64,000 bases of DNA. It comes from Leptolyngbya boryana PCC 6306. Lineage in GTDB: Bacteria > Cyanobacteriota > Cyanobacteriia > Leptolyngbyales > Leptolyngbyaceae. Positions within the stretch are counted from its first letter, which is position 1. Each line of letters begins with the position of its first letter. The position numbers were made by a program, and so were the translations under genes. Location: contig NZ_KB731324.1 in assembly GCF_000353285.1 (NCBI RefSeq), forward strand, positions 18,577 to 82,576, read 5' to 3'. Positions 45,432 to 59,655 of this stretch are shown here, in pieces. Under the pieces are notes generated by a model. That model did not search any database and was not told where the DNA came from. It worked only from the letters and a program-made list of their open reading frames with translations.

Positions 45432-46673
45432 TTAAGGCACGATTGACAATTGAACGCTTACAGTTGTGCCTGCTGCAGAAGAATGAATGGTCAATTCTCC
45501 ATCATGTGCGGTGATAATTCGCTTTACGATCGCGAGTCCTAATCCTGTTCCAGAAGGCTTCGTAGAACAGAAAGGTGTTGTTAGGTGAGGTAAGATTTCT
45601 GGCGGAATGGGTTCTCCATTGTTATGAATATGGATGCAAACTCGCTCTGAATGAAGGGAGCTAATCTCACACCTGATCTTTTCTCCAGGCGAGATTGCTT
45701 CAAAAGCATTCCGAACTAGATTGATAAAAACCTGCTTGAGCTTATCTCGATCGGCGGAAATGTGAATGTCCGGTTGTGTGAAGGTTAATTCTATCTGACG
45801 ATCAGTTGCTTCGGGCATATCCTTAAGTTGTATGAGCAGCTCGCTCAAAAAGTCGCCAAGATTCAACCTGGAGCGCTTCAAGACCTGCGGCTTTGTGTAG
45901 AGCAAGATTTCAGTGAGTAACTGCTTCAGACGTTGAGATTCATTGAGAGCTAAGGCTAATCGTTTTTGATCAGAGGTGTTAAGCAATCGTTTTTTGGCAT
46001 AGTTCAACCCCATCTCGATCGTGGTGAGAGGATTGCGAATCTCATGAATAATTAAGGCTGTGAATTCTCCAATCTCAGCTAGGCGTTCCTGTGTTGCCAA
46101 TTTTGATTGGATTGCTTGTAGTTCTCTCAGCCCAGTCGCAATTTCCTGCTCTAAACGTTGATCGCTCAATCGTTTCTGCTGGTAGAGTTGATAGTTCTCG
46201 ATCACCATTGCTGCGCGTTCTGCAAGCGATTGAACGATCGAGATCTTTTCTGAACTGTGTTGACAAGGATGCTGATGAAATGCGTAAAGCGTTCCGATGA
46301 CTCTGCCATAGATAGTTTGCAGTGGTACTCCCAGAGAATAAATGTAGCTGCCGAGTTGCTCTTGATGGTCGAGGTGGTGTTCTACATCATCAATGTGCTG
46401 AAGCAATCCATGCTGAAGTAGAATTGCCGAAAGTTCTGTATGAAAAGAAGATTCAGGGCCTGCTTCATGGAGAAGCGGGTGACTGGCAAGAATTTGCCAA
46501 TCTCCTTCCTCGCAGATAGTTATAATTGTCCAGTTTGAGTTCAACAATTGACAAACTTCACAGGTAATTCCATGCAAGTAGCGACTTAAGATATAAGCTT
46601 GATCGTTCAATTCCGCTAAAGATTCCAGAACATACCGCTGTTGTTCAACTGATTGGCTGTTCTGTAAATTCAT
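45432..46673 (-). CDS. GAF-domain sensor histidine kinase (HisKA class)
   Basis: From ATG 46671-46673 the protein has 413 residues: a GAF domain (~25-165), a linker coil (LYQQKRLSDQRLEQEI), the dimerisation domain with phospho-acceptor H210 (HEIRNPLTTIEMG), and an HATPase_c domain (NLVRNAFEAI, FCSTKPSGTGLGLAIVKRII). It has no membrane segment. No regulator gene is adjacent on this strand; the Crp/Fnr gene 139 bp upstream points the same way and could be co-expressed. A longer frame from 46751 adds 26 residues of doubtful value. Confidence 0.9.
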   Translation of the reverse strand: MNLQNSQSVEQQRYVLESLAELNDQAYILSRYLHGITCEVCQLLNSNWTIITICEEGDWQILASHPLLHEAGPESSFHTELSAILLQHGLLQHIDDVEHHLDHQEQLGSYIYSLGVPLQTIYGRVIGTLYAFHQHPCQHSSEKISIVQSLAERAAMVIENYQLYQQKRLSDQRLEQEIATGLRELQAIQSKLATQERLAEIGEFTALIIHEIRNPLTTIEMGLNYAKKRLLNTSDQKRLALALNESQRLKQLLTEILLYTKPQVLKRSRLNLGDFLSELLIQLKDMPEATDRQIELTFTQPDIHISADRDKLKQVFINLVRNAFEAISPGEKIRCEISSLHSERVCIHIHNNGEPIPPEILPHLTTPFCSTKPSGTGLGLAIVKRIITAHDGELTIHSSAAGTTVSVQLSIVP

Positions 46674-46812
46674 AAGCGCGTCTCCACACCAGAAAAATGA
46701 TGTTAATGAGCGTAGAACAAAGCCTATGCCTACGTCTTTGATTGAAATCAAGCTTGAGAAATTTTTAGGTTGTCTTAAGAATTTCTCCTTCGCGAAGCGT
46801 TAGTATCTGCGC

Positions 46813-47412
46813 TCACTGGTTGAGTTGAATCATGCGTTTTGTTCGAGTAATGATCCCCTCTTTCTGGAGTTGTTTTAGGGTGCGAGATAAGCTTTCAGGA
46901 CTCACACCTAAATCTTGTGCAATTACCCTCATCGATCGATGAAACTGCATGATTTCTTTACCTGAATCCGCCATGTAGCGAAGATAGTGTAAAATTCGTT
47001 CGCGCGTAGACCGAATCCCACGAATTTCTAACATGATCTTGGTTTGGTGTAATCGATGTGCGAGAAGTTCCATAAATGCACTAGACAGTGCAGGATCTTG
47101 TTGCAGTGCTGGCCAAAACTCCGATTTGGGAAATCGGGCGACTCGTGCTGGTTCTTCTACGATCGCAGTGCATACATAAGATTCCTTAAACAGAGCAATT
47201 TCTGCAAAGATTTCTCCAGCATGAACTCGATAATGGTCGATTTCTTGACCTTCATTCGTGTAATGGAGCAGTCGAATGGTGCCTGACTGTAGAGCAAAGA
47301 TGGAGTGAGCGGGATCATTTTGGTAGAAGAGATAGTCTCCTAGTGCTAAGTCCTGATAGGTTACAATCGAGCGAAAATGAGACAAAAGCTCTTCGACATC
47401 CAAAAAAATCAT
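46813..47412 (-). CDS. Crp/Fnr-family transcriptional regulator
   Basis: The 199-residue protein carries a cyclic-nucleotide-binding-like beta barrel (~15-110, GDYLFYQNDPAHSIFAL... GEIFAEIALF) and a C-terminal winged helix (~135-190, SMRVIAQDLGVSPESLSRTL). The effector pocket has GEIFAEIAL where cAMP-binding members have GELALI and R-[ST]; the Arg/Ser pair is not evident, so another ligand or none is likely. No Cys cluster for oxygen sensing is present. In cyanobacteria this class includes NtcA-like regulators; this one is more divergent. It diverges from the kinase gene at 47654. Confidence 0.88.
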   Translation of the reverse strand: MIFLDVEELLSHFRSIVTYQDLALGDYLFYQNDPAHSIFALQSGTIRLLHYTNEGQEIDHYRVHAGEIFAEIALFKESYVCTAIVEEPARVARFPKSEFWPALQQDPALSSAFMELLAHRLHQTKIMLEIRGIRSTRERILHYLRYMADSGKEIMQFHRSMRVIAQDLGVSPESLSRTLKQLQKEGIITRTKRMIQLNQ

Positions 47413-47653
47413 AGAATTGAAAAACAGAACGAATTAGCTTAAGTAAGCAATTTAACTACTATTGCTAGAATTGCTTAATTCAAGATGAGAGACACGTAAG
47501 AACTGGATAAAATATAAAAAATAATATCTAATTCTTAAGAAGTCGCTGAGTTTTGTCGAGTAACCGTATCTCAAGAATTTCATATCATTAGCCGCATTTT
47601 GAGCATTTCAGCTTAATGTGGAATGAATCCTCTCTAGGTAATGAGTGAAGTCG

Positions 47654-48766
47654 ATGAATCCGCTGGGTCAAGGTTCAAATCGGTGGAGTAGAAGGCGAAA
47701 ATGGCTTGATTTCGCCTCATTACAGGTTCGGCTGATGGTCGTAGTGATTGTGATTTGCGCGATCGCACTTGCTAGCTATAAATTGTTCAGTCATTGGAGC
47801 ATCCAAACGGTGCTAATGATGCACTCCGAGCAACTGACGATCGCGCAATTTTTAACGATTACAGAACAACTCGCAACACTCAGTCTGCTTGTGATCAGCG
47901 CAATGGCTGCCACGATTCTAGGGGGGATTTGGCTACTCCTCCGTCCCTTGAAGCAATTTCAGTATTGGGTGCAAACGACAACTACTGTTGCTCAGTTAAC
48001 GACCTTTAATGCACGTGCTGCCCCTAGCGAGATTCGGACTTTAGCACAGGCATGGGATGAACTCCTCAGCCAGCGAGCAGCCGTCAAACAGCAGCAGCGT
48101 CAATTTATCAGCGATGTGGCTCATGAACTGCGATCGCCGTTAAGTACGGTCTATGGTTATCTTCAACGTACCGTCAGACGAATCCCTAATCTATCCGTGT
48201 CTCAGCAAGAAAGTCTTGAAATGGCGACTTCGGAAGCCGAGCGGATGACGCTGATTTTACAGGATTTAATTAGTCTCGCACGAGCGGAAAGTTTTGATAG
48301 TACTCTTGCTCAAGAACCACTCATTCTCAATGAATTTGTGCGGGACATTTCCAGCATGACAGAAAAGTTTGATCATCCGAATATTCAGACTGAAATCGCT
48401 CCGATGCCTATTCGAGTGCAGACGCATCGGGATTACTTAATGCAGGTGCTAGATCATCTCATCCAGAATGCGGTTCGATATTCTGATCCCAATTCACCGG
48501 TTCTGATTCGACTCAAGCAAGTTGACAATTTCGCAGTGATTCAAGTGATCGATCGTGGTGAAGGGATTCCTCCATCCGATCAAGTGATGATTTTTGAACC
48601 TTTTCATCGCATTGATCCCTCGCGTAGTCGAGCAACGGGAGGAACAGGACTAGGACTTGCGATCGTCAAGACTTTGATCGAAAAGATGGGAGGCACGCTT
48701 TCTCTCGATTCTGAGCCTGGGGTTGGCACAACCTTCACATTGACCTTACCGATATTAGGACGATGA
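47654..48766 (+). CDS. membrane-bound HAMP-type sensor histidine kinase
   Basis: Two membrane helices (~20-40 and ~75-95, LSLLVISAMAATILGGIWLL) enclose a short external loop. Then come a HAMP-like linker, the dimerisation domain with H157 (DVAHELRSPLSTVYG) and a complete HATPase_c domain (HLIQNAVRYS, DRGEGI, GTGLGLAIVKTLIEKMGG). ATG 47654 or GTG 47645 are both possible starts. Its stop overlaps the ATG of the OmpR-type regulator by four bases (ATGA), so the two form one operon and one signalling pair. The layout resembles RppB/NblS-type cyanobacterial kinases. Confidence 0.92.
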   Translation: MNPLGQGSNRWSRRRKWLDFASLQVRLMVVVIVICAIALASYKLFSHWSIQTVLMMHSEQLTIAQFLTITEQLATLSLLVISAMAATILGGIWLLLRPLKQFQYWVQTTTTVAQLTTFNARAAPSEIRTLAQAWDELLSQRAAVKQQQRQFISDVAHELRSPLSTVYGYLQRTVRRIPNLSVSQQESLEMATSEAERMTLILQDLISLARAESFDSTLAQEPLILNEFVRDISSMTEKFDHPNIQTEIAPMPIRVQTHRDYLMQVLDHLIQNAVRYSDPNSPVLIRLKQVDNFAVIQVIDRGEGIPPSDQVMIFEPFHRIDPSRSRATGGTGLGLAIVKTLIEKMGGTLSLDSEPGVGTTFTLTLPILGR

Positions 48767-49449
48767 GCATGAGCATTCCCCACATTCTGATTGTCGAAGA
48801 CGAGGTGCAACTTGCACGGTTTATTGCCCTGGAGTTAGAAAGTGAAGGCTATCAGGTGAGTGTTGCCCACGATGGCATGAATGGATTAATGCTGGCTCGT
48901 GAAATATCTCCTGAATTGGCGTTGCTCGATTGGATGCTACCGGGTCTATCAGGGATTGAACTTTGCCGCCGATTGCGATCGACTGGGTTTAAAGCACCGA
49001 TCATCTTTTTGACTGCAAAAGACGAAGTGGGTGATCGGGTTGCAGGACTGGATGCTGGAGCAGATGATTATGTTGTTAAGCCCTTTAGCATTGAGGAATT
49101 GATTGCGAGAGTTCGCGCTCATTTGCGTCGAAATCAAGAGACGGATGAAGAAGTCTTGCAGTTTGGAACGTTAAGGCTCAACCACAAAACACGAGAGGTT
49201 TATCGGGGAGGACGATCGATTGAATTAACCGCAAAAGAGTTTGATTTACTAGAGTACTTTTTGCGGCATCCTCGCCAAGTTCTGACGCGCGATCAAATTC
49301 TCGAAACAGTATGGGGATATGATTTTGTTGGAGACTCTAACATCATTGAGGTGTATGTTCGATATTTGCGCTTGAAGCTAGAAGGATCGCACGAACCCCG
49401 CTTAATTCATACGATACGAGGAGTTGGCTACGCTTTGCGAGAAGATTAG
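48763..49449 (+). CDS. OmpR/PhoB-type response regulator
   Basis: The receiver domain (1-120) has the acidic triad E12-D13 and phospho-acceptor D56 (LLDWMLPG), T and K in the switch positions (FLTAKDE, VVKPF), and is followed by a winged-helix DNA-binding domain (~130-225, LTAKEFDLLEYFLRHPRQVL... DSNIIEVYVRYLRLKLE). It is co-transcribed with the kinase gene upstream. Six promoters within the next 9 kb carry 11-bp-spaced direct repeats, the type of site that OmpR-family dimers bind, so this protein is the leading candidate for their regulator. A receiver-only paralogue is encoded at 57682. Confidence 0.94.
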   Translation: MSMSIPHILIVEDEVQLARFIALELESEGYQVSVAHDGMNGLMLAREISPELALLDWMLPGLSGIELCRRLRSTGFKAPIIFLTAKDEVGDRVAGLDAGADDYVVKPFSIEELIARVRAHLRRNQETDEEVLQFGTLRLNHKTREVYRGGRSIELTAKEFDLLEYFLRHPRQVLTRDQILETVWGYDFVGDSNIIEVYVRYLRLKLEGSHEPRLIHTIRGVGYALRED

Positions 49450-49561: not shown

Positions 49562-51832
49562 CTAAGGCGATACTTGAGCCACAGAAACTATGCTCGCTCT
49601 TGCAGTTCGATCGAAGATCACACGAGGTTTCAGTAAAACCTGAAAGAGTAGCCAGAGCGATCGCAGTTCTCCCGGAGCACATTGACTACGCCACTGTCCA
49701 GGACGGCAATATAGCATTTGGATCAAACATCGCTCCTGTTCAAGTGAAAGGGGTTCAAAGTGAATGTGCAAGAGCGGAAACTCACTGTTTGAAGGGCGAT
49801 CTTCTACTTGAGTGACCTGTGCTGGCAGTGTAAGATCCTCTTCTAGAAAGTCTACTTGAATTCGAGAATCTTTTGGAGTTATTTGTTGAGTTATCGCGAT
49901 CGTTGCTCCAACTTCTGAAATTCCTGTCGTAAAGCCCCATCTGACTTGATCCCCAATCTGTACCTTGAGAGTACGACGCAGATCGAACTCATCATAAGCG
50001 TGAGGTCGAGGCACATCAATTAGAATCAGCAATGCAATGCTGAGCGTGAGTAGATTAAAAACGCTCCAGATCCAACCGAGATCGACCCCTTTCATCTGAT
50101 TCGCAATATCGTCTGTCATCGGCTGCCATGCTCCCATTAGAATTGCATAGCCTAAGTTCATCCACAAACTCATTGCAGTTGCGATGAAAAAGATGATCAA
50201 AGGTGCAGCCAATCTCCAGTTAAACTGAAAGCGATCGCGACTCGTTCCTTTAGGGGTCACCCGAAATTCCTGCCCAAAAGGATTAAGCATCACTTGAATC
50301 ACAGTCAAAGCCAGTGGAAACGCGAGTACCAAAGCATAAAGATCTGCTAGAAAAGCAGACCGAGATCGATGATTGAGCCAAGAGAAAGTTGTGATCTGAA
50401 CGAGGTAAAACGGCAGAAAGTAATACAAAATTTCAGCATTTGTCGCTCTGACTGGAATGATGTGCAAAAACGCATAAGCAATGGGAAACAAGAGAAATCC
50501 AACGCGCGAAAGACTGGTAAACCAATGCAAAATTCCCTCTAAATGAGCAAGCCGTTGCATCGGACGCAATCCTTTAATTGTGAGTGGATTTGCATCGACA
50601 AAAAAAGCTTGCAGCGTCCCTCGTGCCCACCGTAATCTCTGAAGCGCTTGGGCTGCAATACTCTCTGCTGCAAGACCTGCGCTCAATTTTTCATTGAGAT
50701 AGATCAATCGATAGCCTTTCGCAGCTAATCGAATTCCGGTATAGTAGTCTTCGCTCAAGGCTCCTGTAAAAAAATATCCTGCTTCAATCAAAGCAGAGCG
50801 CCGCACTACAAACGAAGTTCCAGCACAGATAACGCCCCCAGCAGCATCCCGAATAGGTTGAATTTGCCGATAAAAGACTTCCTCTTCTGGTGTCAGAATA
50901 TCTTCTAATCCAAGGTTTCGAGCAATTGGATCAGCATTGTAAAATGTCTGTGGGGTTTGGACTAGACCGACTGTTGAATCTTGAAAAAAGCCGACTGTAC
51001 GAGTGAGAAAGTTCTGAGTCGGAATAAAATCAGCATCAAAGACGGCGATCAGTTCACCACTTGTTTGAGGAATGGCATGATTTAGGTTCCCTGCTTTTGC
51101 ATGCCGATTATCTGGTCGAGTGAGGTACTGACAGCCAAGTTCGAGACAGAGATCTCTGATTTCAGGTCGTCTATGATCGTCGAGCAGATACACACTTTTA
51201 GCAGAATAATTTAATGCTTGACACCCTATGATCGTGCGTCTCAAGATAAACGCTGGCTCGTTATAAGTGGGAATCAAGATATCGACATGAGGCACATAGC
51301 TCTGGTTTAGAACTGAGATCGACAGTTGATCTGCTTCTGGCTTTCTATCTCTGACTCTTAGCAACAGGATAAGCTGAATCATGCTGCCACTCAGGATAAG
51401 GAGTTCTAACAAGAATAACCCCAGGCTAAAAACACCATCCAACGGATTACTAAAATTGAGCGTAGACAGCGATCGCCAAACAAAATAGCGAATCATCAAA
51501 ATCCCCAAAACAGCCACCACAAGTACTCTCGACCAGGGCTGAGGACGTGGCGAAATCTTTGTAATCGCGAAGACTAGGAACGTTAAGAGTACTGCCCAAG
51601 CCAAAAGATACTCGCCAGCTACCATCGGAACCATCAACCAACCCGGCGGAGTCTGCTGAATCTGATTTAGCCGCTCAAATAACGTCGGAATTGTCCCCTG
51701 CCCAGCAAACCAAGCAGTAACGATGAGTGCTGAGATCGCAACAACGCCTAGCATGATCAAAGTGGCGGATTGGGGGAGTTGTAGATTGTTCCGATTAAAC
51801 CCTAGAAACATCGATCGGGCGTACTGCTTCAT
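49562..51832 (-). CDS. cellulose synthase-like family 2 glycosyltransferase with PilZ-like domain
   Basis: A 756-residue membrane protein: about four N-terminal membrane helices, a GT2 catalytic domain with HVDILIPTYNEP, LDDH, DADFIP (DxD) and the Q-x-x-R-W signature (QRLRW in LQRLRWARGTLQ), four or more C-terminal helices, and a PilZ-like segment (RRTLKVQIGDQVRWG) that in BcsA binds cyclic di-GMP; the R-x3-R motif is only partly kept (DLRRT). It matches bacterial cellulose synthase catalytic subunits, which make and export beta-1,4-glucan. No bcsB is adjacent. Its promoter carries the 11-bp TCAG repeats, linking it to the local regulon. Confidence 0.88.
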   Translation of the reverse strand: MKQYARSMFLGFNRNNLQLPQSATLIMLGVVAISALIVTAWFAGQGTIPTLFERLNQIQQTPPGWLMVPMVAGEYLLAWAVLLTFLVFAITKISPRPQPWSRVLVVAVLGILMIRYFVWRSLSTLNFSNPLDGVFSLGLFLLELLILSGSMIQLILLLRVRDRKPEADQLSISVLNQSYVPHVDILIPTYNEPAFILRRTIIGCQALNYSAKSVYLLDDHRRPEIRDLCLELGCQYLTRPDNRHAKAGNLNHAIPQTSGELIAVFDADFIPTQNFLTRTVGFFQDSTVGLVQTPQTFYNADPIARNLGLEDILTPEEEVFYRQIQPIRDAAGGVICAGTSFVVRRSALIEAGYFFTGALSEDYYTGIRLAAKGYRLIYLNEKLSAGLAAESIAAQALQRLRWARGTLQAFFVDANPLTIKGLRPMQRLAHLEGILHWFTSLSRVGFLLFPIAYAFLHIIPVRATNAEILYYFLPFYLVQITTFSWLNHRSRSAFLADLYALVLAFPLALTVIQVMLNPFGQEFRVTPKGTSRDRFQFNWRLAAPLIIFFIATAMSLWMNLGYAILMGAWQPMTDDIANQMKGVDLGWIWSVFNLLTLSIALLILIDVPRPHAYDEFDLRRTLKVQIGDQVRWGFTTGISEVGATIAITQQITPKDSRIQVDFLEEDLTLPAQVTQVEDRPSNSEFPLLHIHFEPLSLEQERCLIQMLYCRPGQWRSQCAPGELRSLWLLFQVLLKPRVIFDRTARASIVSVAQVSP

Positions 51833-51866: not shown

Positions 51867-51919
51867 AGTATGCAGCGCAAAAATGAGTGTTTCCTGAGAA
51901 TTTCCTGAAAACATCTAGA
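51867..51919 (-). promoter_or_regulatory. 11-bp-repeat promoter of the glycosyltransferase gene
   Basis: Reading on the minus strand, slots start at 51919 (TCTA), 51908 (TCAG), 51897 (TCAG) and 51886 (TCAT), each 11 bp apart. The core reads TCAGGAAATTC then TCAGGAAACAC. A -10-like CATACT begins at 51872, 14 nt after the last slot starts. The start codon is at 51832. The same geometry recurs in five other promoters. Confidence 0.65.
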
Positions 51920-52123
51920 ATGTAGTGATATTGTAATTTTTCTAATGGATAGAGCTAACGTTTTGGGAGGATGGATGAGCTTAGCTCATCATCTATACGA
52001 TTCTAAGTGTGAGACTGGGTGAGTGAGATCTAATGACAGAAGTCTCGCTCAGGCTCTTGAAAAGTTGTAATCATACAAAAGTTGTAGTCATACAAAGAGC
52101 CGCGGAAAGTGTCGAACTAATTT

Positions 52124-52162
52124 TCAAAAAATGGACAAAGCCATAAGTCTAGGGCTTTGTCC
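52124..52162 (-). terminator. rho-independent terminator after the first DUF2808 gene
   Basis: GGACAAAGCC and GGCTTTGTCC form a perfect 10-bp stem with a 10-nt loop (52133-52162). On the minus strand it is followed by ATTTTTTG. It lies 30 bp past the DUF2808 stop codon. Confidence 0.85.
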
Positions 52163-52192
52163 AATATTGGTGCAAACGTGGAAACAACTCAA

Positions 52193-52681
52193 TTATTGAT
52201 GGCTTGGAACTTGAATTCGGGCTGTGCCAATTGGAATTTCCGTATTAATGCCAGCCTGTTTCGCTGTGATACGGTAGAGCAAGATCTCGCCTTGTTCCAT
52301 TGCAGTATCTCCATTGGTAAAATCAAGCTCGATCGTACGCCCTGGAGCCACAGGTTGATCGAAGACGACTGCCACTCTGCTTTCAGCCCGGCTGATCTTT
52401 GCAGGGATCGTTTTACCTGATTCGTCTTTGACAATGATGCTACTGAATTTTGCCATTTGTGGAGGAATCAGCACCATCAAATCTTCGAGAGACATTCCAA
52501 GTACCATAACACGAATCAGGTGATGTTCACCCTGAAGCCCAGAGCTACTAACAAAAGGAGCATTGAAGCTAAATGACATCGCAGACTGAGGCAAAATTAC
52601 AGGAGCCGTTGCAGTAGCAGGAAGGCTTGCTGCAATGGCTAACGCGATCGTAGAGAAGCTAACTAAGGCAAACCGTTTCAT
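52193..52681 (-). CDS. DUF2808 exported protein (first copy)
   Basis: From ATG 52679-52681 the protein has 162 residues: a signal peptide (MKRFALVSFSTIALAIAASL, cleavage near PATATA) and one DUF2808 domain with FVSSSGLQGEHHLIRVMVLG, MSLEDLMVLIPPQMAKF and a C-terminal IPIGTARIQV strand. DUF2808 proteins are almost confined to cyanobacteria, are exported, and have no known function; some respond to stress. The second copy at 56911-57405 is clearly paralogous. A strong terminator follows. Its promoter carries the 11-bp repeats. Confidence 0.88.
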   Translation of the reverse strand: MKRFALVSFSTIALAIAASLPATATAPVILPQSAMSFSFNAPFVSSSGLQGEHHLIRVMVLGMSLEDLMVLIPPQMAKFSSIIVKDESGKTIPAKISRAESRVAVVFDQPVAPGRTIELDFTNGDTAMEQGEILLYRITAKQAGINTEIPIGTARIQVPSHQ

Positions 52682-52749
52682 AGGATTCTCCCAGATACAA
52701 AGGATGGCTGAATGCAACGGACTGTAGAGTAATAAGATTGCATTTTCCT

Positions 52750-52802
52750 AGGATGAAGTACGAAGCTTTAGAGAGTCTGAGAGTCAGCTTAAAGTTGGCT
52801 GA
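52750..52802 (-). promoter_or_regulatory. 11-bp-repeat promoter of the first DUF2808 gene
   Basis: On the minus strand the slots start at 52802 (TCAG), 52791 (TAAG), 52780 (TCAG) and 52769 (AAAG), all 11 bp apart. CATCCT at 52755 lies 14 nt after the last slot starts. The slot order TCAG-TAAG-TCAG-(A/G)AAG is the same as in the promoter at 57596. Confidence 0.6.
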
Positions 52803-52829
52803 GAGATTGAAAATCATCCTAACTCATTC

Positions 52830-53174
52830 TCAATGCAGATTGATTTCTCGCAGTTGATTATCCAAAGCATTCAAGTAGCCACGATTGTTTAACGTGGAAT
52901 CGGGGAGTAGATGCATTGCGATCGCAGCTTGTACGATATCTTTGTTTGAGACTTTCCCTGAAGAGTGATCTTGAATCAGTCCCCCATAACCACTGATTCC
53001 CTGACTTTTGAAATATCCTCGATAAGCAAAGGTAGCAAGATCGGCGGGTGTAAGTCTAATGACTTCTTGAGCGATTGTCATGTTCATCGCTTCCTTAGTT
53101 TGAGCGATCGCGCTCGCTCCTGAGAAACTAGAGAACAGCATCAGCAGGAATGATATTTGTAGAAAACGTTTCAT
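52830..53174 (-). CDS. small exported hypothetical protein (114 aa)
   Basis: A clear signal peptide (MKRFLQISFLLMLFSSFSGA, cleavage after SAIAQ near residue 25) precedes a mature part of ~90 residues with VIRLTPADLATFAYRGYFKS and a helical C-terminus VQAAIAMHLLPDST. No family recognised; the C-terminal pattern resembles small helical periplasmic proteins. It is transcribed divergently from the secreted protein gene at 53386, and both promoters carry the 11-bp repeats. Confidence 0.7.
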   Translation of the reverse strand: MKRFLQISFLLMLFSSFSGASAIAQTKEAMNMTIAQEVIRLTPADLATFAYRGYFKSQGISGYGGLIQDHSSGKVSNKDIVQAAIAMHLLPDSTLNNRGYLNALDNQLREINLH

Positions 53175-53207
53175 TGTGTGACATCCTCAACGGGTTGATA
53201 TCAGATC

Positions 53208-53260
53208 AGCATGACAAATCCACCTGAATGAGGTCTGATAAGACCATGAGAATTGACTGA
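53208..53260 (-). promoter_or_regulatory. 11-bp-repeat promoter of the 114-aa gene
   Basis: On the minus strand the slots start at 53260 (TCAG), 53249 (TCAT), 53238 (TCAG) and 53227 (TCAG), exactly 11 bp apart. CATGCT at 53213 begins 14 nt after the last slot starts. The start codon is at 53174. Confidence 0.68.
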
Positions 53261-53299
53261 GGACTTAGAAAAAACGTTGAATCTTTTCTACAGAAAAAC

Positions 53300-53352
53300 T
53301 CAGAGAGTTTTTAAGCAAATCTCAGCTTCTACTCAGGATTGCTACTTATGCT
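53300..53352 (+). promoter_or_regulatory. 11-bp-repeat promoter of the 128-aa gene
   Basis: The slots start at 53300 (TCAG), 53311 (TTAAG), 53322 (TCAG) and 53333 (TCAG), exactly 11 bp apart. TATGCT at 53347 begins 14 nt after the last slot starts. The repeats therefore take the place of a -35 box, as in PhoB-type activation. The ATG is at 53386. Confidence 0.7.
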
Positions 53353-53385
53353 GAGGTTGAGTGGACGTATAAGGAACTCACCAAA

Positions 53386-53772
53386 ATGACCAAGATGAAA
53401 CTTCCCGCTTTGTTAACAACAGCAGCCTTGATGAGTATGGTTACGCTATGGGATGCTCCGCTAAAAACATTGAGTCCTCAATTGGTACAAGCATCTGCCG
53501 CAGAAATGAAAGATAGTACTGGGTTAACTGCTCAACAAAAAATTGCTAGGGTGACCCAGCATAAAGGGCAGTTTGGGGGTGGCGATGAACTGAGACGATA
53601 CTTTTTTGGCGATCTAGAACCCCTGGGAGTGCAGCCTGGAGGTGCAGGAATGGTTGTCAATCTCTACAACAAGGCAAACAATACTACCTTTTCCTATTGT
53701 GCAACTTATGATGTGGTTGTCGCTGTAAAAACAGGTAGAGTTGCACAGTTTCCGGCTAGCGAAGTCAAATAA
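53386..53772 (+). CDS. exported hypothetical protein (128 aa)
   Basis: The N-terminal ~40 residues form a signal peptide (MTKMKLPALLTTAALMSMVT with cleavage likely near VQASA). The mature protein has a Gly-rich centre (HKGQFGGGDELRRYFFGDLE) and one Cys (SYCATYDVV). No family recognised. A hairpin resembling a terminator lies ~70 bp after its stop. It belongs to the group of envelope genes with 11-bp-repeat promoters. Confidence 0.7.
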   Translation: MTKMKLPALLTTAALMSMVTLWDAPLKTLSPQLVQASAAEMKDSTGLTAQQKIARVTQHKGQFGGGDELRRYFFGDLEPLGVQPGGAGMVVNLYNKANNTTFSYCATYDVVVAVKTGRVAQFPASEVK

Positions 53773-53839
53773 TTGCATTTTATGTTGGGTCACTCTGTTG
53801 CGTTGCACCAATGATCCGCTTGTCGCTAGAACATCGTCT

Positions 53840-53891
53840 GGACTGGTGATAAAATCCCTAGTAGGAGGCTTTATCGCTAGTCCGGATTTTT
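53840..53891 (+). terminator. long hairpin followed by T run
   Basis: GGACTGGTGATAAA (53840-53853) pairs with TTTATCGCTAGTCC (53870-53883) over 14 positions, two of them G-U, and is followed by GGATTTTT. It probably ends transcription of the secreted protein gene, 29 bp ahead of the next start codon; an attenuator for the EamA gene is the alternative. Confidence 0.6.
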
Positions 53892-53919
53892 AGTATGTGC
53901 TTTATTCGGAACTACGATC

Positions 53920-54951
53920 GTGACAAATTTAAACAGGACTCCATCTCAGCGTAAAATCCCAGGGCAACTTTATCTCTGGCTAGCTGTGCTGATCTTCGGA
54001 GCTTCTAGCGCTGTGACTCGTAAGCTGACCGAACTTGGCGCTCAACACTTCATGGATGGGCACAATCCAATCTCATTGTGCAATGTCTTGTTTGTTGGAA
54101 ATCTCTGTGCGCTACTCGTTTTATTGATCCTGTACGGGCGGCAGTGGAATCGAGCAAACCTAAGACAATTATCGCAGCGAAACTGGGTAAATCTGACACT
54201 TGTTGCGATTCTGTCAGGCGCGATCGCGCCCGCTTTATTTTTTCAAGCCTTAGCTCTGACACAGGTAAACAATGTTGTGCTGATTGGGCGATTGGAGCCA
54301 CCATTCACTTTAGCACTTTCGATATGGCTGCTGCGGGAACGCTCAAATCGATGGGAGGTGATCGGCACAGCCCTGGCATTGATGGGTGTTCTTTTGACAA
54401 TTTTTTTGCAGCCATCCTTACAGGGGATGAATTTTAGAATCGCAGGGGTGGGTGAAAGTTTGGCAGTGATCGGTGCGATCTCGCTGGCGATCTCAACGAT
54501 TATTAGCAAAAAGTGGCTGAGTGAAGTTCCTACAGCAATTTATGGAATCTTCCGGACTGCATTAGGCACGATTGTCTTTTTCTTTGCAGCCTTAGTTTTA
54601 TATGGCAGCCATCATTTTGTCGAGATCTTCTCTCCATTTTTGTGGCGATGGATGCTGATCTATGGTGTGATTATTGTTGTTCTAGGACAATCATTTTGGG
54701 TTCGTGGCTTGAGAGCATCTACTGTTTCGACCGCCTCACTGATCAGTTCATTTACGCCGATTGTAGGAGTTTTTGCGGCTTACTGGATTCTCGATGAGGC
54801 TCCGACTCAAGCTCAGTATATTGGTGGAAGTGTGATTTTGTTTGGGTTATTTCTTAGTCAAATGGGAAGCTTACAGATGGCTCACCGCAGAAATTTACCG
54901 CAGGTGGAACCGATGGAAGTTGAGAATGGAATCGGATTTAAAGGACTTTAA
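53920..54951 (+). CDS. EamA-family (DMT superfamily) membrane transporter
   Basis: The 343-residue protein starts at GTG 53920 and contains ten hydrophobic segments arranged as two EamA repeats: LYLWLAVLIFGASSAVTRKL through LTIFLQPSL, then SLAVIGAISLAISTIISKKW through GGSVILFGLFLSQ. The repeat ends carry the usual EPPFTLALSIWLL and SFTPIVGVFAAYWILDE patterns. Such proteins export small metabolites or amino acids; the substrate here is unknown. Confidence 0.85.
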   Translation: MTNLNRTPSQRKIPGQLYLWLAVLIFGASSAVTRKLTELGAQHFMDGHNPISLCNVLFVGNLCALLVLLILYGRQWNRANLRQLSQRNWVNLTLVAILSGAIAPALFFQALALTQVNNVVLIGRLEPPFTLALSIWLLRERSNRWEVIGTALALMGVLLTIFLQPSLQGMNFRIAGVGESLAVIGAISLAISTIISKKWLSEVPTAIYGIFRTALGTIVFFFAALVLYGSHHFVEIFSPFLWRWMLIYGVIIVVLGQSFWVRGLRASTVSTASLISSFTPIVGVFAAYWILDEAPTQAQYIGGSVILFGLFLSQMGSLQMAHRRNLPQVEPMEVENGIGFKGL

Positions 54952-55015
54952 AAACTACGATCGCTGAGATACGAATCCCATCTGCACCAATGCACCTGAC
55001 GCGATCGCGCTTCTT

Positions 55016-55554
55016 CTAGTCGCTGTCACCCACCATTGCACTAGTCACAGTCCAAGCTCCTGACTTGTGTACACCACGCATTGTCATACAAAATTGTGTT
55101 GCTTCGATAACAACCGCGACCCCTGCGGTTCAAGAACGGTTTGAATCGCATCAGCAATCTGACGAGTCAGGCGTTCTTGTACCTGCAAGTGGCGTGAATA
55201 CATTTCGACAATTCGTGCTAACTTGCTCAAGCCAACAACCCTCTGATTTGGAATGTAGGCGATATGTGCCCGACCCACAAAAGGCAAGAGATGATGTTCA
55301 CACAGACTAAACATATTAATGTCTCGAACTAAGACCATTTCGCTGTGCCCTTCATCAAAAATTGCCCCGTTGATCAGTTCTTCCAAAGATTGCTGCTAGC
55401 CGCTTGTCAGAAATTGCATGGCTTTTGCCACTCGTTTCGGCGTTTTGAGTAGCCGTTCTCGATCGGGATTTTCACCCATCCCCAATAGAAGCGTTTTCAC
55501 CGCTTCTATCATGAGACTTTGATGCAGTTCTGATTGCACACTCGATTCGTTCAA
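55016..55554 (-). pseudogene. folE: GTP cyclohydrolase I, one stop and one frameshift
   Basis: The minus strand reads [20 protein letters not shown], then [39 protein letters not shown], the metal-binding [18 protein letters not shown], and after a one-base slip [20 protein letters not shown] to a TAG at 55016. FolE makes dihydroneopterin triphosphate, the first step of tetrahydrofolate and queuosine-type pathways. A TAG replaces the Tyr codon of the SGY motif (~55396), and one G is missing from a GGGG-type run near 55124. A start at ATG 55386 would leave a 100-residue piece without the N-terminal helices. Another copy elsewhere is expected. Confidence 0.85.
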
Positions 55555-55636
55555 GGAGATAGCGGTCTATGAGTTCAAATTCAGAGTAGGAATCAATTTG
55601 AGTATCTTTGAGATGCGATCAGATTGAGTCTTAACC

Positions 55637-56907
55637 CTTAAGGGGTGACGACACGACTGAACGGTAGAAAGGATGCCGGATAGCAGCATTGAGAGACAGA
55701 AAAAATGAGGTGATTCCACTTGTTTCACCCCATCAATCTAAAAGATGTTGCCCTCATTCTATCAAACCTGTTTACAATCGCAATTAACGGAAGCGCAATT
55801 TGTGACGCTAGAAATCTTGGTCGAACTGTTGCAAAAAGAGCGAAGAATTACGATTGAACGGATAGCGACCCTGTTTCCGCAACCGATTCTATTTGAGAGC
55901 AGACGGCGGAATATTCAGCGATTCTTGAGTCTGCCGCAACTGACTCCACAAGCGATCTGGTTTCCGATTGTCAAGCAGTGGATCAAACGACATTACTCAG
56001 GTAGAACTCCGCTTCACCTGGTGGTTGACCGGACGCAATGGCAAAACCATAACTTGATCATGGTGAGTCTTGTATACCAGAAGCGGGCAATCCCATTGCA
56101 CTGGATGTGGCTGAACAAGCAAGGACAGAGTTCGCTGGCTGAACAACGAAAAGTGTTATGTCCGGTATTTCATCTGTTGAAAAAGTATCGCTTCATTTTG
56201 CTCGGAGACCGTGAGTTTCACAGTATCGAGCTTGCTGCTTGGTGTGTGGAAAAACAAGTCAAATTCGTGTTCCGTTTACCGAAAAGTACGACCATCAAAC
56301 CGAATGACAGCGATGCGTTTACTCGCCTCGACGATTTGCCACAAACGCCCGGAATCACTGAGCAATATCTGCACATTCAAGTCACGCAAAATCGCGGGTT
56401 CGGCAAGCATAATTTAGTCTTGCGCCAAAAACGCGCCTACCGTCAATCGAATTCTGATGCTTGGTATCTGCTGACCAATCTCGTCGGTGCCGAACAAACT
56501 CTGAAAGCTTACTCTAATCGCTTCTCCATTGAGCCGCTGTTCAAAGACTACAAATCCGGTGGCTATCATCTCGAAGATTGCCATGCCGATTCACGCCGAT
56601 TCAATGCACTACTGGTTCTGATTGCCATTGCTTATTCGCTCTCAACGCTTCAGGGACGACGCATTCGCCAAAAGCAAGTGCAATGCTACGTCGGTCGAGT
56701 CAAGGAGCCGAAGCGAACCCGAAACCGACATAGCAATTTCTGGATTGGCTTGTATGGCAGGTTGTGGATTGAACCCTTGCAATTGTGGTCAACTCTGGCG
56801 ACCAAGTTGATGGCACTCAAGCCGCAAAAACGTCCCTTTTTTCAGCGAGGTCTCAATGCCATTTCCTTGATCCAGTCTGCTCTCTAGCTTCGTTGTCACC
56901 CCTTGAG
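55637..56907 (+). mobile_element. IS4-family insertion sequence, apparently intact
   Basis: Inverted ends CTTAAGGGGTGACGAC (55637) and, reversed, CTCAAGGGGTGACAAC (ending at 56907) match in 14 of 16 positions. The 9-bp sequence GTCTTAACC flanks both sides (55628-55636 and 56908-56916) as a target duplication. The right copy contains the stop codon of the second DUF2808 gene, so the insertion left that gene's coding sequence complete. Confidence 0.9.
55745..56887 (+). CDS. IS4-family transposase (DDE)
   Basis: A 380-residue full-length transposase with HLVVDRTQWQ (first Asp), LLGDREFHS (second Asp) and the Y-x2-R-F-x-IE-x-LFKD (Y-(2)-R-(3)-E) motif YSNRFSIEPLFKDYKSGG that defines IS4. No frameshift or internal stop is present, and the ends and target duplication are intact, so it is likely still mobile. 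Confidence 0.92.
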   Translation: MLPSFYQTCLQSQLTEAQFVTLEILVELLQKERRITIERIATLFPQPILFESRRRNIQRFLSLPQLTPQAIWFPIVKQWIKRHYSGRTPLHLVVDRTQWQNHNLIMVSLVYQKRAIPLHWMWLNKQGQSSLAEQRKVLCPVFHLLKKYRFILLGDREFHSIELAAWCVEKQVKFVFRLPKSTTIKPNDSDAFTRLDDLPQTPGITEQYLHIQVTQNRGFGKHNLVLRQKRAYRQSNSDAWYLLTNLVGAEQTLKAYSNRFSIEPLFKDYKSGGYHLEDCHADSRRFNALLVLIAIAYSLSTLQGRRIRQKQVQCYVGRVKEPKRTRNRHSNFWIGLYGRLWIEPLQLWSTLATKLMALKPQKRPFFQRGLNAISLIQSAL

Positions 56908-56910
56908 GTC

Positions 56911-57405
56911 TTAACCTCGTCCCGGAACTTGAATTCTGGCAGTGCCGATCGGAATTTCGTCTCGGATCCCTGCACGGTGTCCAGTCAATCCGTAGAGTAA
57001 GATAGATCCCTCTTCTTGGTCAGTCTGGATGCCGACAATGTTGATTTGTAGCAGTTGCCCTGGATTGACAGGCTGATCAAATGCGATCGCAACTTGCTTC
57101 TTGTTCGTGGTAATTTTTGCGGCAACTGCTTTCCCAGTTCCATCAGTGACTTGAACCCGACTAAATTTGCCCATTTGTGGCGGAATCGAAATCGTCAAGT
57201 CTTCTAGAGACATCCCAAGCACCATGACTTGGATGATATGACTATCGTTGAGTAACCCAGAACTACTGATAAAAGGAGCAGTAAAATCGAAAACCATACT
57301 ACCCGATGCACTCAGTTCAATTTTGGGAGCAGATGCTAAAGCTGGAGAGAGGATTGAAGCCGAAAGAAGCAATGCAGATAAGCTGCTATAGATGAATCGT
57401 CTCAT
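56911..57405 (-). CDS. DUF2808 exported protein (second copy)
   Basis: The 164-residue protein has a signal peptide (MRRFIYSSLSALLLSASILS, cleavage near ALASA) and one DUF2808 domain with FISSSGLLNDSHIIQVMVLG, MSLEDLTISIPPQMGKFSRV and the ending EIPIGTARIQVPGRG. It is strikingly close to the copy at 52193-52681 in the central and C-terminal parts. An IS4 insertion lies just after its stop codon, so the native terminator has been separated from it. It is divergent from the lone receiver gene, and both promoters carry 11-bp repeats. Confidence 0.88.
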   Translation of the reverse strand: MRRFIYSSLSALLLSASILSPALASAPKIELSASGSMVFDFTAPFISSSGLLNDSHIIQVMVLGMSLEDLTISIPPQMGKFSRVQVTDGTGKAVAAKITTNKKQVAIAFDQPVNPGQLLQINIVGIQTDQEEGSILLYGLTGHRAGIRDEIPIGTARIQVPGRG

Positions 57406-57467
57406 AAGTTTCTCGTTGAGTACTAAGAATCAAAGTTCTCGAAAGGCTTCAAGGAAGCTTGCTCACT

Positions 57468-57531
57468 ATCTTGACCGTTCAAGCTGAGAACTTGCTGATC
57501 GCAACCTGAGAATTTCTGAATGATTTGCTGA
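57468..57531 (-). promoter_or_regulatory. 11-bp-repeat promoter of the second DUF2808 gene
   Basis: Five TCAG elements start at 57531, 57519, 57509, 57498 and 57487 on the minus strand (steps 12, 10, 11, 11). CAAGAT at 57473 begins 14 nt after the last. The start codon is at 57405. It is the densest of the six sites. Confidence 0.68.
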
Positions 57532-57595
57532 GGAAAAGGAAAGTCACTCGTTGATCTGCAAACAAAGCTTATTCTCATCATTTAGTTCTCTAAAT

Positions 57596-57648
57596 TCAGG
57601 CAGTTTTAAGCTTCTTCTCAGGACTTCTGAAGGCTGATGAGACAAGAT
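57596..57648 (+). promoter_or_regulatory. 11-bp-repeat promoter of the lone receiver gene
   Basis: The slots start at 57596 (TCAG), 57607 (TAAG), 57618 (TCAG) and 57629 (GAAG), 11 bp apart. CAAGAT at 57643 begins 14 nt after the last slot starts. The ATG is at 57682, giving a short leader. Confidence 0.68.
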
Positions 57649-57681: not shown

Positions 57682-58089
57682 ATGAAAACGCGCCTGCTTC
57701 TTATCGAAGACCAAATCAATCTCGCTCACTTCATTGCCCTAGAACTGAGGGCTGAGGGATATCAGGTGATTGTCGAACATCATGCCAAAATCGGATTAAT
57801 CGCGGCTCAGGTGCTATGTCCTGACATCATCATCATGAGTTGGGATCTACCTGGAGAAGCTGCTTCAAGAGCGTATCACCAGCTTAGATCGATCGGGAAT
57901 CAGGTTCCAATTGTGGTAATGACAGTTGATACCAAACCTCGTCATGTCTTATCGCCTGAACTCAATGAAATGGTTTGGCTGATGAAACCCTTTTGTATGT
58001 CTGACTTGTTCAAAGCTATTGATCAAGTTCGCCACACGCCATTATTTGTTAATTCACCTCAACCTGAGAGGATGCTGAGAATCGGCTGA
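57682..58089 (+). CDS. stand-alone receiver domain lacking the phospho-acceptor Asp
   Basis: The 135 residues form one receiver domain closely resembling the one at 48763: LLIEDQINLAHFIALELRAE against LIVEDEVQLARFIALELESE. The acidic pair (E9-D10), switch Thr (VVMTVD) and Lys (LMKPF) remain, but the phospho-acceptor position is Ser (S53 in IIIMSWDLPG). There is no output domain. It cannot be phosphorylated in the normal way and may act as a decoy, dimerisation partner or phosphate-independent adaptor for the OmpR-type regulator; this is inference. Its promoter carries the same 11-bp repeats. Confidence 0.85.
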   Translation: MKTRLLLIEDQINLAHFIALELRAEGYQVIVEHHAKIGLIAAQVLCPDIIIMSWDLPGEAASRAYHQLRSIGNQVPIVVMTVDTKPRHVLSPELNEMVWLMKPFCMSDLFKAIDQVRHTPLFVNSPQPERMLRIG

Positions 58090-58227
58090 GGATTTACTTA
58101 TCAAATTTTCAGCTTGTTCTACAAAACTTCTTAACGACTCATCATTCAGAACTTGTCTCTCTCAATGAAACTCGTAAAAAGGACTTTCTAACAAGATTGC
58201 TTCACCCTACAGCAGCAGGATATCGAG

Positions 58228-59655
58228 ATGGATGAAACGACTCTGCCAACTGTAATTTTGGGCGCTGGTTTTACGGGACTATTTGCAACCTTGCACCTGT
58301 GTCATCGCCGCTACCCTCATCATATTGTACTGATTGATCGAGCAGAACGGTTTGTGTTTAAGCCTCTGCTCTATGAACTCCTGAGTGGCGAAATGACCGA
58401 TACTCAAGTACAGCCTCGTTATGCCGAGTTATTTGAGTGTGATAGTGTAACGTTTGTGCAGGATGATATTGCAACGATCGATTTAGAAACGCGAACGGTT
58501 AAGCTCACTTCGGGACTTTGCTATCGATATGGCAATTTGGTTTTAGGACTTGGTAGTGTTCCGACTTACTTTGACATTTTAGGAGCAGAAGCTCATACTT
58601 TTGCATTTCGCACAGGTGAGGATGCGATCGCATTGCGGCGACAGTTGCGAGATTGTCTGCAAAGGGCAACTCAAGCAGACGTTGAACAGCGACAGACATT
58701 ATTGACGATTGCGATCGTAGGAGCAGGACCTGCTGGACTAGAAATGGCAGCAACATTAGCAGACTTGTTGCCCAAATGGTACGACCGACTGCACGGTGAT
58801 CCCAAAGATATTCGGATTGTTGTGTTGAATCGTAGCCATGAAATTCTCAAAGATGACATTAACGGACATCTGCGAGAAATTGTCCAAACTGCCCTTCAAA
58901 CCCGTAAGGTTTCTGTTGAAATTATTCAAGGCGTTGCTGTTAAAGCTGTATTGCCGGATGCTTTGAAGTATGAGCAAAATCATGAGATTAAAGTACTTCA
59001 AACTGCGACTGTGATCTGGACAGCGGGCAATGGACTTCATCCTCTAGTTCAACAGTTAGCAATTTCGGATGAAAATCGCGATCGCACAGGTCGGTTGCGA
59101 GTTGTCCCCACACTACAACTGCCTGACTTCCCGGAGGTTTTTGTGGGTGGAGATTGCGCCGTGTTAGAGAAGCCTCTACCCGCAACGGCGCAAGTTGCCT
59201 ACCAACAAGGAGCCGCGATCGCACATAATTTATATGAGATCGCACAAGGGCAGCCCCCAAAACCCGCAACAGTCGCGCTACGAGGAACACTGATGAAATT
59301 GGGTTTAGGCGAGAGCGTTGCGAATCTCTTCGATCGAGTACCAATTACAGGACGGGCAGGGCATCTAGTACGACATGGAACCTATTTAGAACTCCTCCCC
59401 GTGTATGTTCACAATTTCAAAGCGACGGTAGGTTGGCTGACAGATGAGATCTTTCAGCGTCCGAGTCGAACTAGCTTGAAACCTTTGACCTCGATGCGAT
59501 TGCTTCAGCGCGTTGGAGATGTTGCGGCTGCGATCGTGGTCATGAGTAGTGGGCTTTTGCTGTGGCGTGCTGCTCAACCGACCCAGTTCGAGCAGACTTT
59601 GCGATCGACACAGTTGCCCGCATTGCTCGATCGACTTCAGCACAAACAAGGATAG
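58228..59655 (+). CDS. type II NADH dehydrogenase-like FAD oxidoreductase
   Basis: The 475-residue protein has two dinucleotide-binding motifs: FAD GAGFTG near residue 12 (TVILGAGFTGLFATLHL) and NAD(P) GAGPAG near 164 (IAIVGAGPAGLEMAATL). FKPLLYELLSGEM and the FVGGDCA segment (second FAD contact) are typical of single-subunit NDH-2 enzymes, which oxidise NADH and reduce quinones at the membrane face without pumping protons. A C-terminal hydrophobic stretch (VAAAIVVMSSGLLLW, ~428-445) could anchor it. A DoxX gene follows after 39 bp and may be co-transcribed. Confidence 0.9.
   Translation: MDETTLPTVILGAGFTGLFATLHLCHRRYPHHIVLIDRAERFVFKPLLYELLSGEMTDTQVQPRYAELFECDSVTFVQDDIATIDLETRTVKLTSGLCYRYGNLVLGLGSVPTYFDILGAEAHTFAFRTGEDAIALRRQLRDCLQRATQADVEQRQTLLTIAIVGAGPAGLEMAATLADLLPKWYDRLHGDPKDIRIVVLNRSHEILKDDINGHLREIVQTALQTRKVSVEIIQGVAVKAVLPDALKYEQNHEIKVLQTATVIWTAGNGLHPLVQQLAISDENRDRTGRLRVVPTLQLPDFPEVFVGGDCAVLEKPLPATAQVAYQQGAAIAHNLYEIAQGQPPKPATVALRGTLMKLGLGESVANLFDRVPITGRAGHLVRHGTYLELLPVYVHNFKATVGWLTDEIFQRPSRTSLKPLTSMRLLQRVGDVAAAIVVMSSGLLLWRAAQPTQFEQTLRSTQLPALLDRLQHKQG

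Follow-up and report, generated by a model that had tools for sequence, protein, structure and literature searches.

TCAG arrays of Leptolyngbya boryana as candidate PhoB-like promoters of a two-component response to envelope oxidation

In a 64-kb stretch of the Leptolyngbya boryana PCC 6306 genome (7.26 Mb), hereafter the window (contig C1, positions 18577-82576), six promoter regions carry rows of four TCAG-like boxes, and this locus raises the question of which protein reads these rows and to what end. Our comparisons indicate that a row of four TCAG boxes is probably the landing site of a two-component regulator, which appears to turn on genes protecting and repairing the oxidised cell envelope. 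We consider it likely that the arrays are promoters of the PhoB type and belong to an autoregulated response to oxidation of the envelope, namely of its methionine. The candidate response regulator (RR1) and its sensor histidine kinase (HK1) are encoded in the same window.

The arrays, their distance to the -10 hexamer, their link to the regulator and the genes downstream of them can be read directly from the DNA. A preliminary description of the window had listed six promoters with four TCAG-like slots each, spaced by 11 bp and placed at a fixed distance from a -10 hexamer. The 24 slots and six hexamers are all located where it put them and the hexamer starts exactly 14 nt past the start of slot 4 in the six cases, while the step is 11 bp in 17 of 18 instances but 10 bp between 57519 and 57509. 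Its list was correct for all six arrays but overlooked a seventh one on the reverse strand. Exact TCAG is present in 16 of the 24 slots of P1-P6, the others being TCTA, TCAT (2), TAAG (2), AAAG, TTAA and GAAG. The arrays are the following.

51867-51919, minus strand: P1, slots at 51919, 51908, 51897 and 51886, -10 CATACT
52750-52802, minus strand: P2, slots at 52802, 52791, 52780 and 52769, -10 CATCCT
53208-53260, minus strand: P3, slots at 53260, 53249, 53238 and 53227, -10 CATGCT
53300-53352, plus strand: P4, slots at 53300, 53311, 53322 and 53333, -10 TATGCT
57468-57519, minus strand: P5, slots at 57519, 57509, 57498 and 57487 (first step 10 bp), -10 CAAGAT
57596-57648, plus strand: P6, slots at 57596, 57607, 57618 and 57629, -10 CAAGAT
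58064-58111, minus strand: reverse-strand array, best register 15/16, without a -10 at +14, between the lone receiver and NDH-2-like genes

The reverse array was kept at the same place in two loci of relatives (L114 and L120).

Arrays were counted as registers, and one array can yield several overlapping registers in all counts given here. The window contains 10 registers of at least 13/16, six of which (P1-P6) have NA[AT]NNT at +14, while 100 Markov shuffles of the window gave means of 0.65 and 0.01, respectively. In the 141 kb around the window, eight registers of at least 14/16 were found at period 11, compared with 0, 1, 2 and 1 at periods 9, 10, 12 and 13 and none with the reversed motif.

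A scan of the whole genome, which the preliminary description had proposed, was made with a pattern of four boxes and YANNNT at +14 (at most three mismatches) and gave 17 matches, against three for the reversed pattern used as control. RR1 has two close paralogs in this genome, RR2 (81% identical) and RR3 (68%), the next relative being 52% identical, and 11 of the 17 matches, including all six of those with at most two mismatches, are located within 13 kb of RR1, RR2 or RR3. These 11 matches lie at C1:70-117 kb or 342-347 kb; six of them are P1-P6, from which the pattern itself was derived, and five are new. The two perfect matches precede the RR3 gene (C1:104555, minus strand) and a paralog of small1, a gene for a small secreted protein of the window (C1:342838, plus strand). 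A looser three-box pattern (at most two mismatches) gave 750 matches versus 411 in the control, so its matches are mostly background.

RR2 is located directly behind a second copy of the module formed by small1, small2 (another small secreted protein gene) and the kinase, and paralogs of HK1 adjoin both other regulators (C1:343430 and C1:102627). Near RR3, an operon-like row encodes a Met-rich lipoprotein, TlpA-like and CcdA-like proteins, a cytochrome b561, an MsrP-like protein and a kinase, RR3 coming next on the opposite strand, with MsrB divergent from it and MsrA some 14 kb off. The RR3 region also holds EgtB, EgtD and zwf- and gnd-like genes, the last two recognised by eye. The cluster seen in the preliminary description as a compact envelope regulon is present, but the arrays are not confined to it and reach C1:88-122 kb and 342-347 kb and, in relatives, methionine-sulfoxide repair genes. 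That description had also viewed the boxes as the OmpR/PhoB-type operator of the regulator at 48763-49449 (RR1); co-occurrence backs this well, but not RR1 as sole binder, since boxes are found near each of the three paralogs and any or all of RR1-3 may bind them.

We then compared genomes of the order, 31 of 42 of which contain the regulator (E <= 1e-75; own genome included). Every regulator match outside our genome was taken, giving 36 loci from 30 genomes (607,556 bases). Period-11 TCAG registers at 13, 14 and 15 of 16 numbered 100, 35 and 5 in these loci, whereas the reversed motif gave 0, 0 and 0. The corresponding counts at other periods were 10, 2 and 0 (period 8), 14, 2 and 0 (period 9), 9, 1 and 0 (period 10), 23, 0 and 0 (period 12), 3, 0 and 0 (period 13) and 18, 9 and 6 (period 14, presumably a tandem repeat). 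When the 256 tetramers were ranked at period 11, TCAG and its complement came first with 35, followed by the one-base-shifted register with 20, the next one having 7. An array of at least 13/16 was found in 24 of the 36 loci, and the genes behind the arrays include, among those listed, CesA-like, small2, DUF2808-like, EamA, MsrA/MsrB, Met-rich, kinase, regulator and receiver genes.

The pattern was also searched, as four boxes with ANNNT added and at most two mismatches, in 28 other regulator-bearing genomes (the repeat-rich G001 and G009 were left out), where it gave 47 matches versus 7 in the control, and in the 11 genomes without the regulator, where it gave 2 versus 4. A match was present in 20 of the 28 genomes with the regulator and in 2 of the 11 without it (Fisher p = 0.004, the genomes being related). 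Counting in G001 and G009, whose matches are mostly plain tandem repeats, the totals were 70 and 18. Nineteen further places were picked by eye from pattern matches in genomes of the order. The array was located upstream (at most 460 bp, same strand) of Met-rich, MsrB (2), DUF2808-like (3), CesA-like or small2 genes in eight of them; in three more it preceded the gene of a 72-aa membrane protein (2) or an operon with a kinase, and five were inside predicted open reading frames, one of these being a doubtful 78-aa frame in front of MsrB. The 72-aa proteins (L255:6167-6385 and L270:5941-6159) are similar by eye and have no Pfam match. Within the genus of our strain, five of seven other genomes (G017-G019, G021 and G022) lacked the regulator at E <= 1e-75 and two congeners, G020 and G023, had it (the L114 and L120 loci), so the module was gained or lost within one genus.

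These genomes bear on whether the boxes could be bound by NblR or another conserved OmpR-family regulator, the nearby paralogs being coincidental. NblR is the nearest regulator family of RR1-3 by profile (267-278 bits with model NF045914, 273 for RR1, under the cut-off of 300; the separate NblR of the genome reached 394 bits), and it was found over its cut-off in all 42 genomes of the order examined. However, the frequency of the box tracks the RR while NblR is present throughout, so the box follows the RR and not NblR: the pattern was at control level in the 11 NblR-bearing genomes without the RR, the best matches in our genome were near RR1-3, and the NblR gene (C1:2670094) was more than 80 kb from every one of the 17 matches. 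We judge binding by NblR or its like very improbable. Synechocystis Sll0396/Rre28, which has the length of RR2 (224 aa) and Cys65 in common with it, was considered as an ortholog of RR2 and dropped, since a passage of PMC2491639 names it as the NblR ortholog.

The small2 gene gave access to a second set of genomes. We used the best 80 of 166 relatives of small2 in titled genome records, which include some metagenome-assembled genomes and some genomes twice; the 80 titles are all cyanobacterial (Nostoc, Anabaena, Calothrix, Fischerella, Phormidesmis, Chamaesiphon and others). These sequences are related to one another and played no part in finding the rule. In the 350 bp upstream of small2, an array of at least 12/16 was present on the strand of the gene in 57/80, compared with 24 of 1260 segments drawn at random from these loci, 1/80 for the reversed motif and 3, 0, 2 and 0 of 80 for periods 9, 10, 12 and 13. 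On the other strand, arrays of at least 12/16 were found in 68/80. NA[AT]NNT was located at +14 in 43 of the 57 arrays, the next-best offset having 9. An RR of at least 60% identity was encoded in the flanking DNA examined at 34 of the 80 loci. The same approach with small1 gave 53 candidate stretches in titled genomes, none of which was confirmed. That the periodicity is a product of chance or of base composition is hardly credible: some matches elsewhere, for example in G001 and G009, are indeed plain tandem repeats, but shuffles, reversed motif, other periods and random segments all scored far lower and the -10 offset holds in titled genomes outside the discovery of the rule.

The geometry of the arrays is that of known operators. 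According to parts of PMC1906773, the Pho boxes of E. coli PhoB and cyanobacterial SphR are tandem direct repeats made of 8-bp boxes and 3-bp linkers (11-bp period), those of PhoB end 10 bp upstream of the -10, and at least three are given for SphR. The TCAG arrays are likewise tandem 11-bp direct repeats with the last box 10 nt before the -10 in place of the -35 (6/6 here and 43/57 in titled genomes), and an OmpR-family regulator (receiver and winged helix) is encoded near them. They differ by their sequence, YTCAG rather than CTTAACCT or CTGTACTA as given there, by their four slots, by the reversed boxes of many relatives and by the regulator and genes involved. The preliminary description was right in separating the box from the CTTAACCT type, but did not mention its resemblance to the TTCAT repeat of Synechocystis CopR, the nearest published box that we met (PMC4182526, in part). 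The sections of that paper at hand give TTCAT N4-5 TTCAT for CopR and note that this sequence also occurs before mntC and in the divergent promoters of nrs. CopR is also of the OmpR family with TTCA-type direct repeats; its spacing is 9-10 rather than 11, it has two boxes instead of four and its genes are those of copper, and RR1-3 scored 229-239 bits (RR1 230) with the heavy-metal regulator model TIGR01387, under the cut-off of 279. RpaB is another cyanobacterial OmpR-type regulator with a direct repeat near promoters, HLR1, but the latter has another sequence and a 10-bp step (KTTACAWW-N2-KTTACAWW in the relevant part of PMC13421787).

We infer binding, activation, autoregulation and the signal from these comparisons, as follows. 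Each array would provide tandem half-sites for RR1 and its paralogs RR2 and RR3, phosphorylated dimers of which would line up head-to-tail along one face of the DNA and take over the role of a -35 element. The regulator would then bring RNA polymerase to a -10 that begins 10 nt past the last TCAG. Tandem binding and activation of this kind, which we take to be class II activation, are suggested because the 10-nt gap and the 11-bp step equal those of Pho boxes. The kinase would sense oxidation outside the cytoplasm, most likely methionine damage by reactive chlorine or oxygen species, and the system would raise its own regulator, an array being located before RR3 and, in some relatives, before the kinase or regulator. 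Predicted targets are a Met-rich sacrificial lipoprotein and methionine-sulfoxide reductases, together with thiol and haem electron carriers that would power repair in the periplasm, as well as small secreted proteins and a CesA-like enzyme for polysaccharide synthesis. Repression, in which the regulator would cover the promoter and be released under stress, is an unlikely alternative: it exists in the OmpR family, for RpaB where the site overlaps the start (a point made in PMC13421787, consulted in part), and reverse arrays without a -10 exist, but the last box of an array is 10 nt away from the -10, as for PhoB sites in the cited part of PMC1906773, and the arrays stand in for the -35.

Methionine oxidation is proposed as the signal because of the gene content, namely a Met-rich MxKDx-type lipoprotein, an MsrP-like protein with its b561 neighbour, MsrA and MsrB. 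The MxKDx-type repeats of the lipoprotein were plain by eye in 6/6 compared. Six of the nine kinases compared (HK1, HK3 and four orthologs) have a Met-Met pair in the short loop that separates their hydrophobic segments, and HK2, its L110 ortholog and the L128 kinase lack it; this pair is a lead on methionine sensing. The same regulator and box could serve another signal, be it copper or another metal, high light, desiccation or envelope stress in general, that leads to surface remodelling, with the repair genes as passengers. This would fit with the recurrence of CesA-like, DUF2808-like and small secreted proteins among the targets, with the likeness of the box to the CopR repeat and with the induction of E. 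coli msrP by copper as well, through CusRS (per a portion of PMC9302797). On the other hand, several genomes again encode the Met-rich lipoprotein, TlpA, CcdA, b561, the MsrP-like protein, MsrA and MsrB next to the regulator or downstream of arrays, and no metal transporter was noticed there, a weak point since genes were labelled only by similarity to proteins of this genome. Another signal is possible in our view, though doubtful.

Several observations count against a methionine-oxidation response under TCAG arrays. The signal is read from gene content. The MxKDx model TIGR02953 matched one of four Met-rich proteins scanned, at 32.2 bits for a cut-off of 41, and the MsrP-like protein scored 95 bits for an NCBIfam MsrP cut-off of 207, although MsrP was its best family and the Oxidored_molyb domain was present. 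In our genome, the array before the Met-rich gene (C1:99233) has no -10 at +14 and that before msrA is only partial. Twelve of the 36 regulator loci have no array of at least 13/16, and the sole array of a thirteenth (L122) sits inside a gene. Of the 11 genomes that lack the regulator, two are less than 85% complete, and the relatives are not independent of one another. Finally, in 20 regulator loci from other families of the class, arrays at 14/16 numbered 4 versus 0-1 in controls while those at 13/16 numbered 11 versus 2-14 at other periods, which is no excess. The TCAG code may be restricted or diverged outside the order and the titled lineages; the regulator itself (E <= 1e-90) was found in 170 of the 291 genomes sampled from the class.

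Two known systems are close to the proposed response. E. coli HprRS is an OmpR-type two-component system that adjoins msrPQ (periplasmic methionine-sulfoxide repair), controls it and is needed for its induction by hypochlorous acid, as reported in the part of PMC9302797 consulted. It resembles the present system in that an OmpR-type two-component system adjoins methionine-sulfoxide repair genes, but the HprR/CusR box CATTACAAAATTGTAATG is unlike the TCAG arrays, the target set is another one, and RR1-3 scored 179-195 bits (RR1 179) with the NCBIfam HprR model, under the cut-off of 353. MrpX-YedYZ of Azospira and BcrXQP associate a Met-rich MxKDx-type sacrificial peptide with an MsrP/MsrQ-like repair pair, sets of this kind resist hypochlorous acid, and BcrXQP is under an extracytoplasmic function sigma factor (PMC8315932, in part). 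A Met-rich protein, of MxKDx type by eye in our case, beside an MsrP-like enzyme is common to these sets and ours, whereas a two-component system is proposed here and the membrane partner here is a cytochrome b561.

Many relatives have reversed boxes farther upstream. We examined 77 distinct array promoters (at least 12/16, with a -10) from anywhere in the titled loci and 47 from the 36 regulator loci. Of the CTGA[GA] pentamers between -130 and -34, 126 of 163 in titled loci (mostly at -77, -66 and -55) and 60 of 79 in regulator loci shared the register of the forward boxes; at least two of the three reversed boxes were present in 44 of the 77 and 19 of the 47 promoters. The consensus of this ladder is CTGAgAAa.tgCTGAgt...aaCT.Aa, a spacer slot, then TCAG, ttAG, TCAG, TCAG and TGnGATnCT, the last of which looks like an extended -10. 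Reverse-strand NA[AT]NNT peaked at -89 (+14 of the reversed array) in 13/44, the next position having 10, so only part of the ladder promoters look divergent. In the window's own genome the ladder register was not seen, 3 of 25 pentamers being in register and 12 of 25 in another phase. Where present, the reversed boxes, in the same 11-bp register, could form a bipolar ladder serving divergent promoters or strengthening binding. Tentatively, and with less than even confidence, we propose that cyanobacteria have a two-component system devoted to oxidised methionine of the envelope, with up to three paralogous copies on one operator code. This code would be a ladder of three CTGA(G/A) and four YTCAG boxes in one 11-bp register (about 80 bp), on which the regulator would nucleate as a filament and set divergent promoters jointly, an Asp-less receiver being the built-in modulator.

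The mechanism would be one already known; in the portions of the open-access literature searched, regulator, box and regulon were not named, and a term search of the main text of a 2026 review of cyanobacterial redox regulators (PMC13421787) did not find the word methionine. The regulator family gains a candidate binding code (in its own order and in titled, largely Nostoc-like genomes), a candidate regulon and a candidate signal. This hints at the way in which oxidised proteins outside the cytoplasm may be repaired in cyanobacteria, organisms that produce oxygen and oxidants of their own, and the box is a lead to the function of DUF2808, small1, small2 and the CesA-like enzyme. The genes of the window cluster are the following.

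47645-48766, plus strand: HK1, sensor histidine kinase (HisKA, HATPase_c) with, by eye, a short loop flanked by two hydrophobic segments
48763-49449, plus strand: RR1, OmpR/PhoB-family response regulator (Response_reg, Trans_reg_C), candidate TCAG-box binder
49562-51832, minus strand: CesA-like glycosyltransferase with a PilZ domain (profile matches), predicted P1 target
52193-52717, minus strand: DUF2808-like secreted protein (PF10989 at 22.3 bits, under the gathering score of 25.3), predicted P2 target
52830-53174, minus strand: small1, secreted (by eye), no Pfam or NCBIfam match, predicted P3 target
53386-53772, plus strand: small2, 128 aa, secreted (by eye), relatives in many cyanobacterial genomes, predicted P4 target
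56911-57405, minus strand: second DUF2808-like protein, assigned by eye from its resemblance to that at 52193-52717 and itself without a match in Pfam, predicted P5 target
57682-58089, plus strand: lone receiver with Ser at the position of the expected phosphorylated Asp of RR1-3, predicted P6 target
58228-59655, plus strand: NDH-2-like pyridine nucleotide-disulphide oxidoreductase (PF07992), possible target of the reverse array

Arrays are also located upstream of CesA-like orthologs (for example L130 and L260), at both paralogs of small1 (C1:342924, 63%, and C1:116579, 46%) and with relatives of the second DUF2808-like protein (L123, L124, L256 and L283). The Ser in place of Asp was found in 3/3 orthologs of the lone receiver compared, and this protein, itself under a TCAG array, is possibly a modulator of the regulators. 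The small2 protein had no family match in Pfam or NCBIfam. Its AlphaFold model (mean predicted local distance difference test score of 79, mixed alpha/beta, confident from about residue 41) had no match in the PDB at E <= 0.001, so no function could be drawn from the fold.

Positions 45432-47412 of the window encode what by eye are a histidine kinase of the GAF type and a regulator of the Crp type, and relatives of both recur beside orthologs of the regulator in several other genomes. Inside the cluster, between both DUF2808-like genes, are a transposase-like open reading frame (55745-56887) and a short GTP cyclohydrolase-like fragment (55084-55386), both recognised by eye only.

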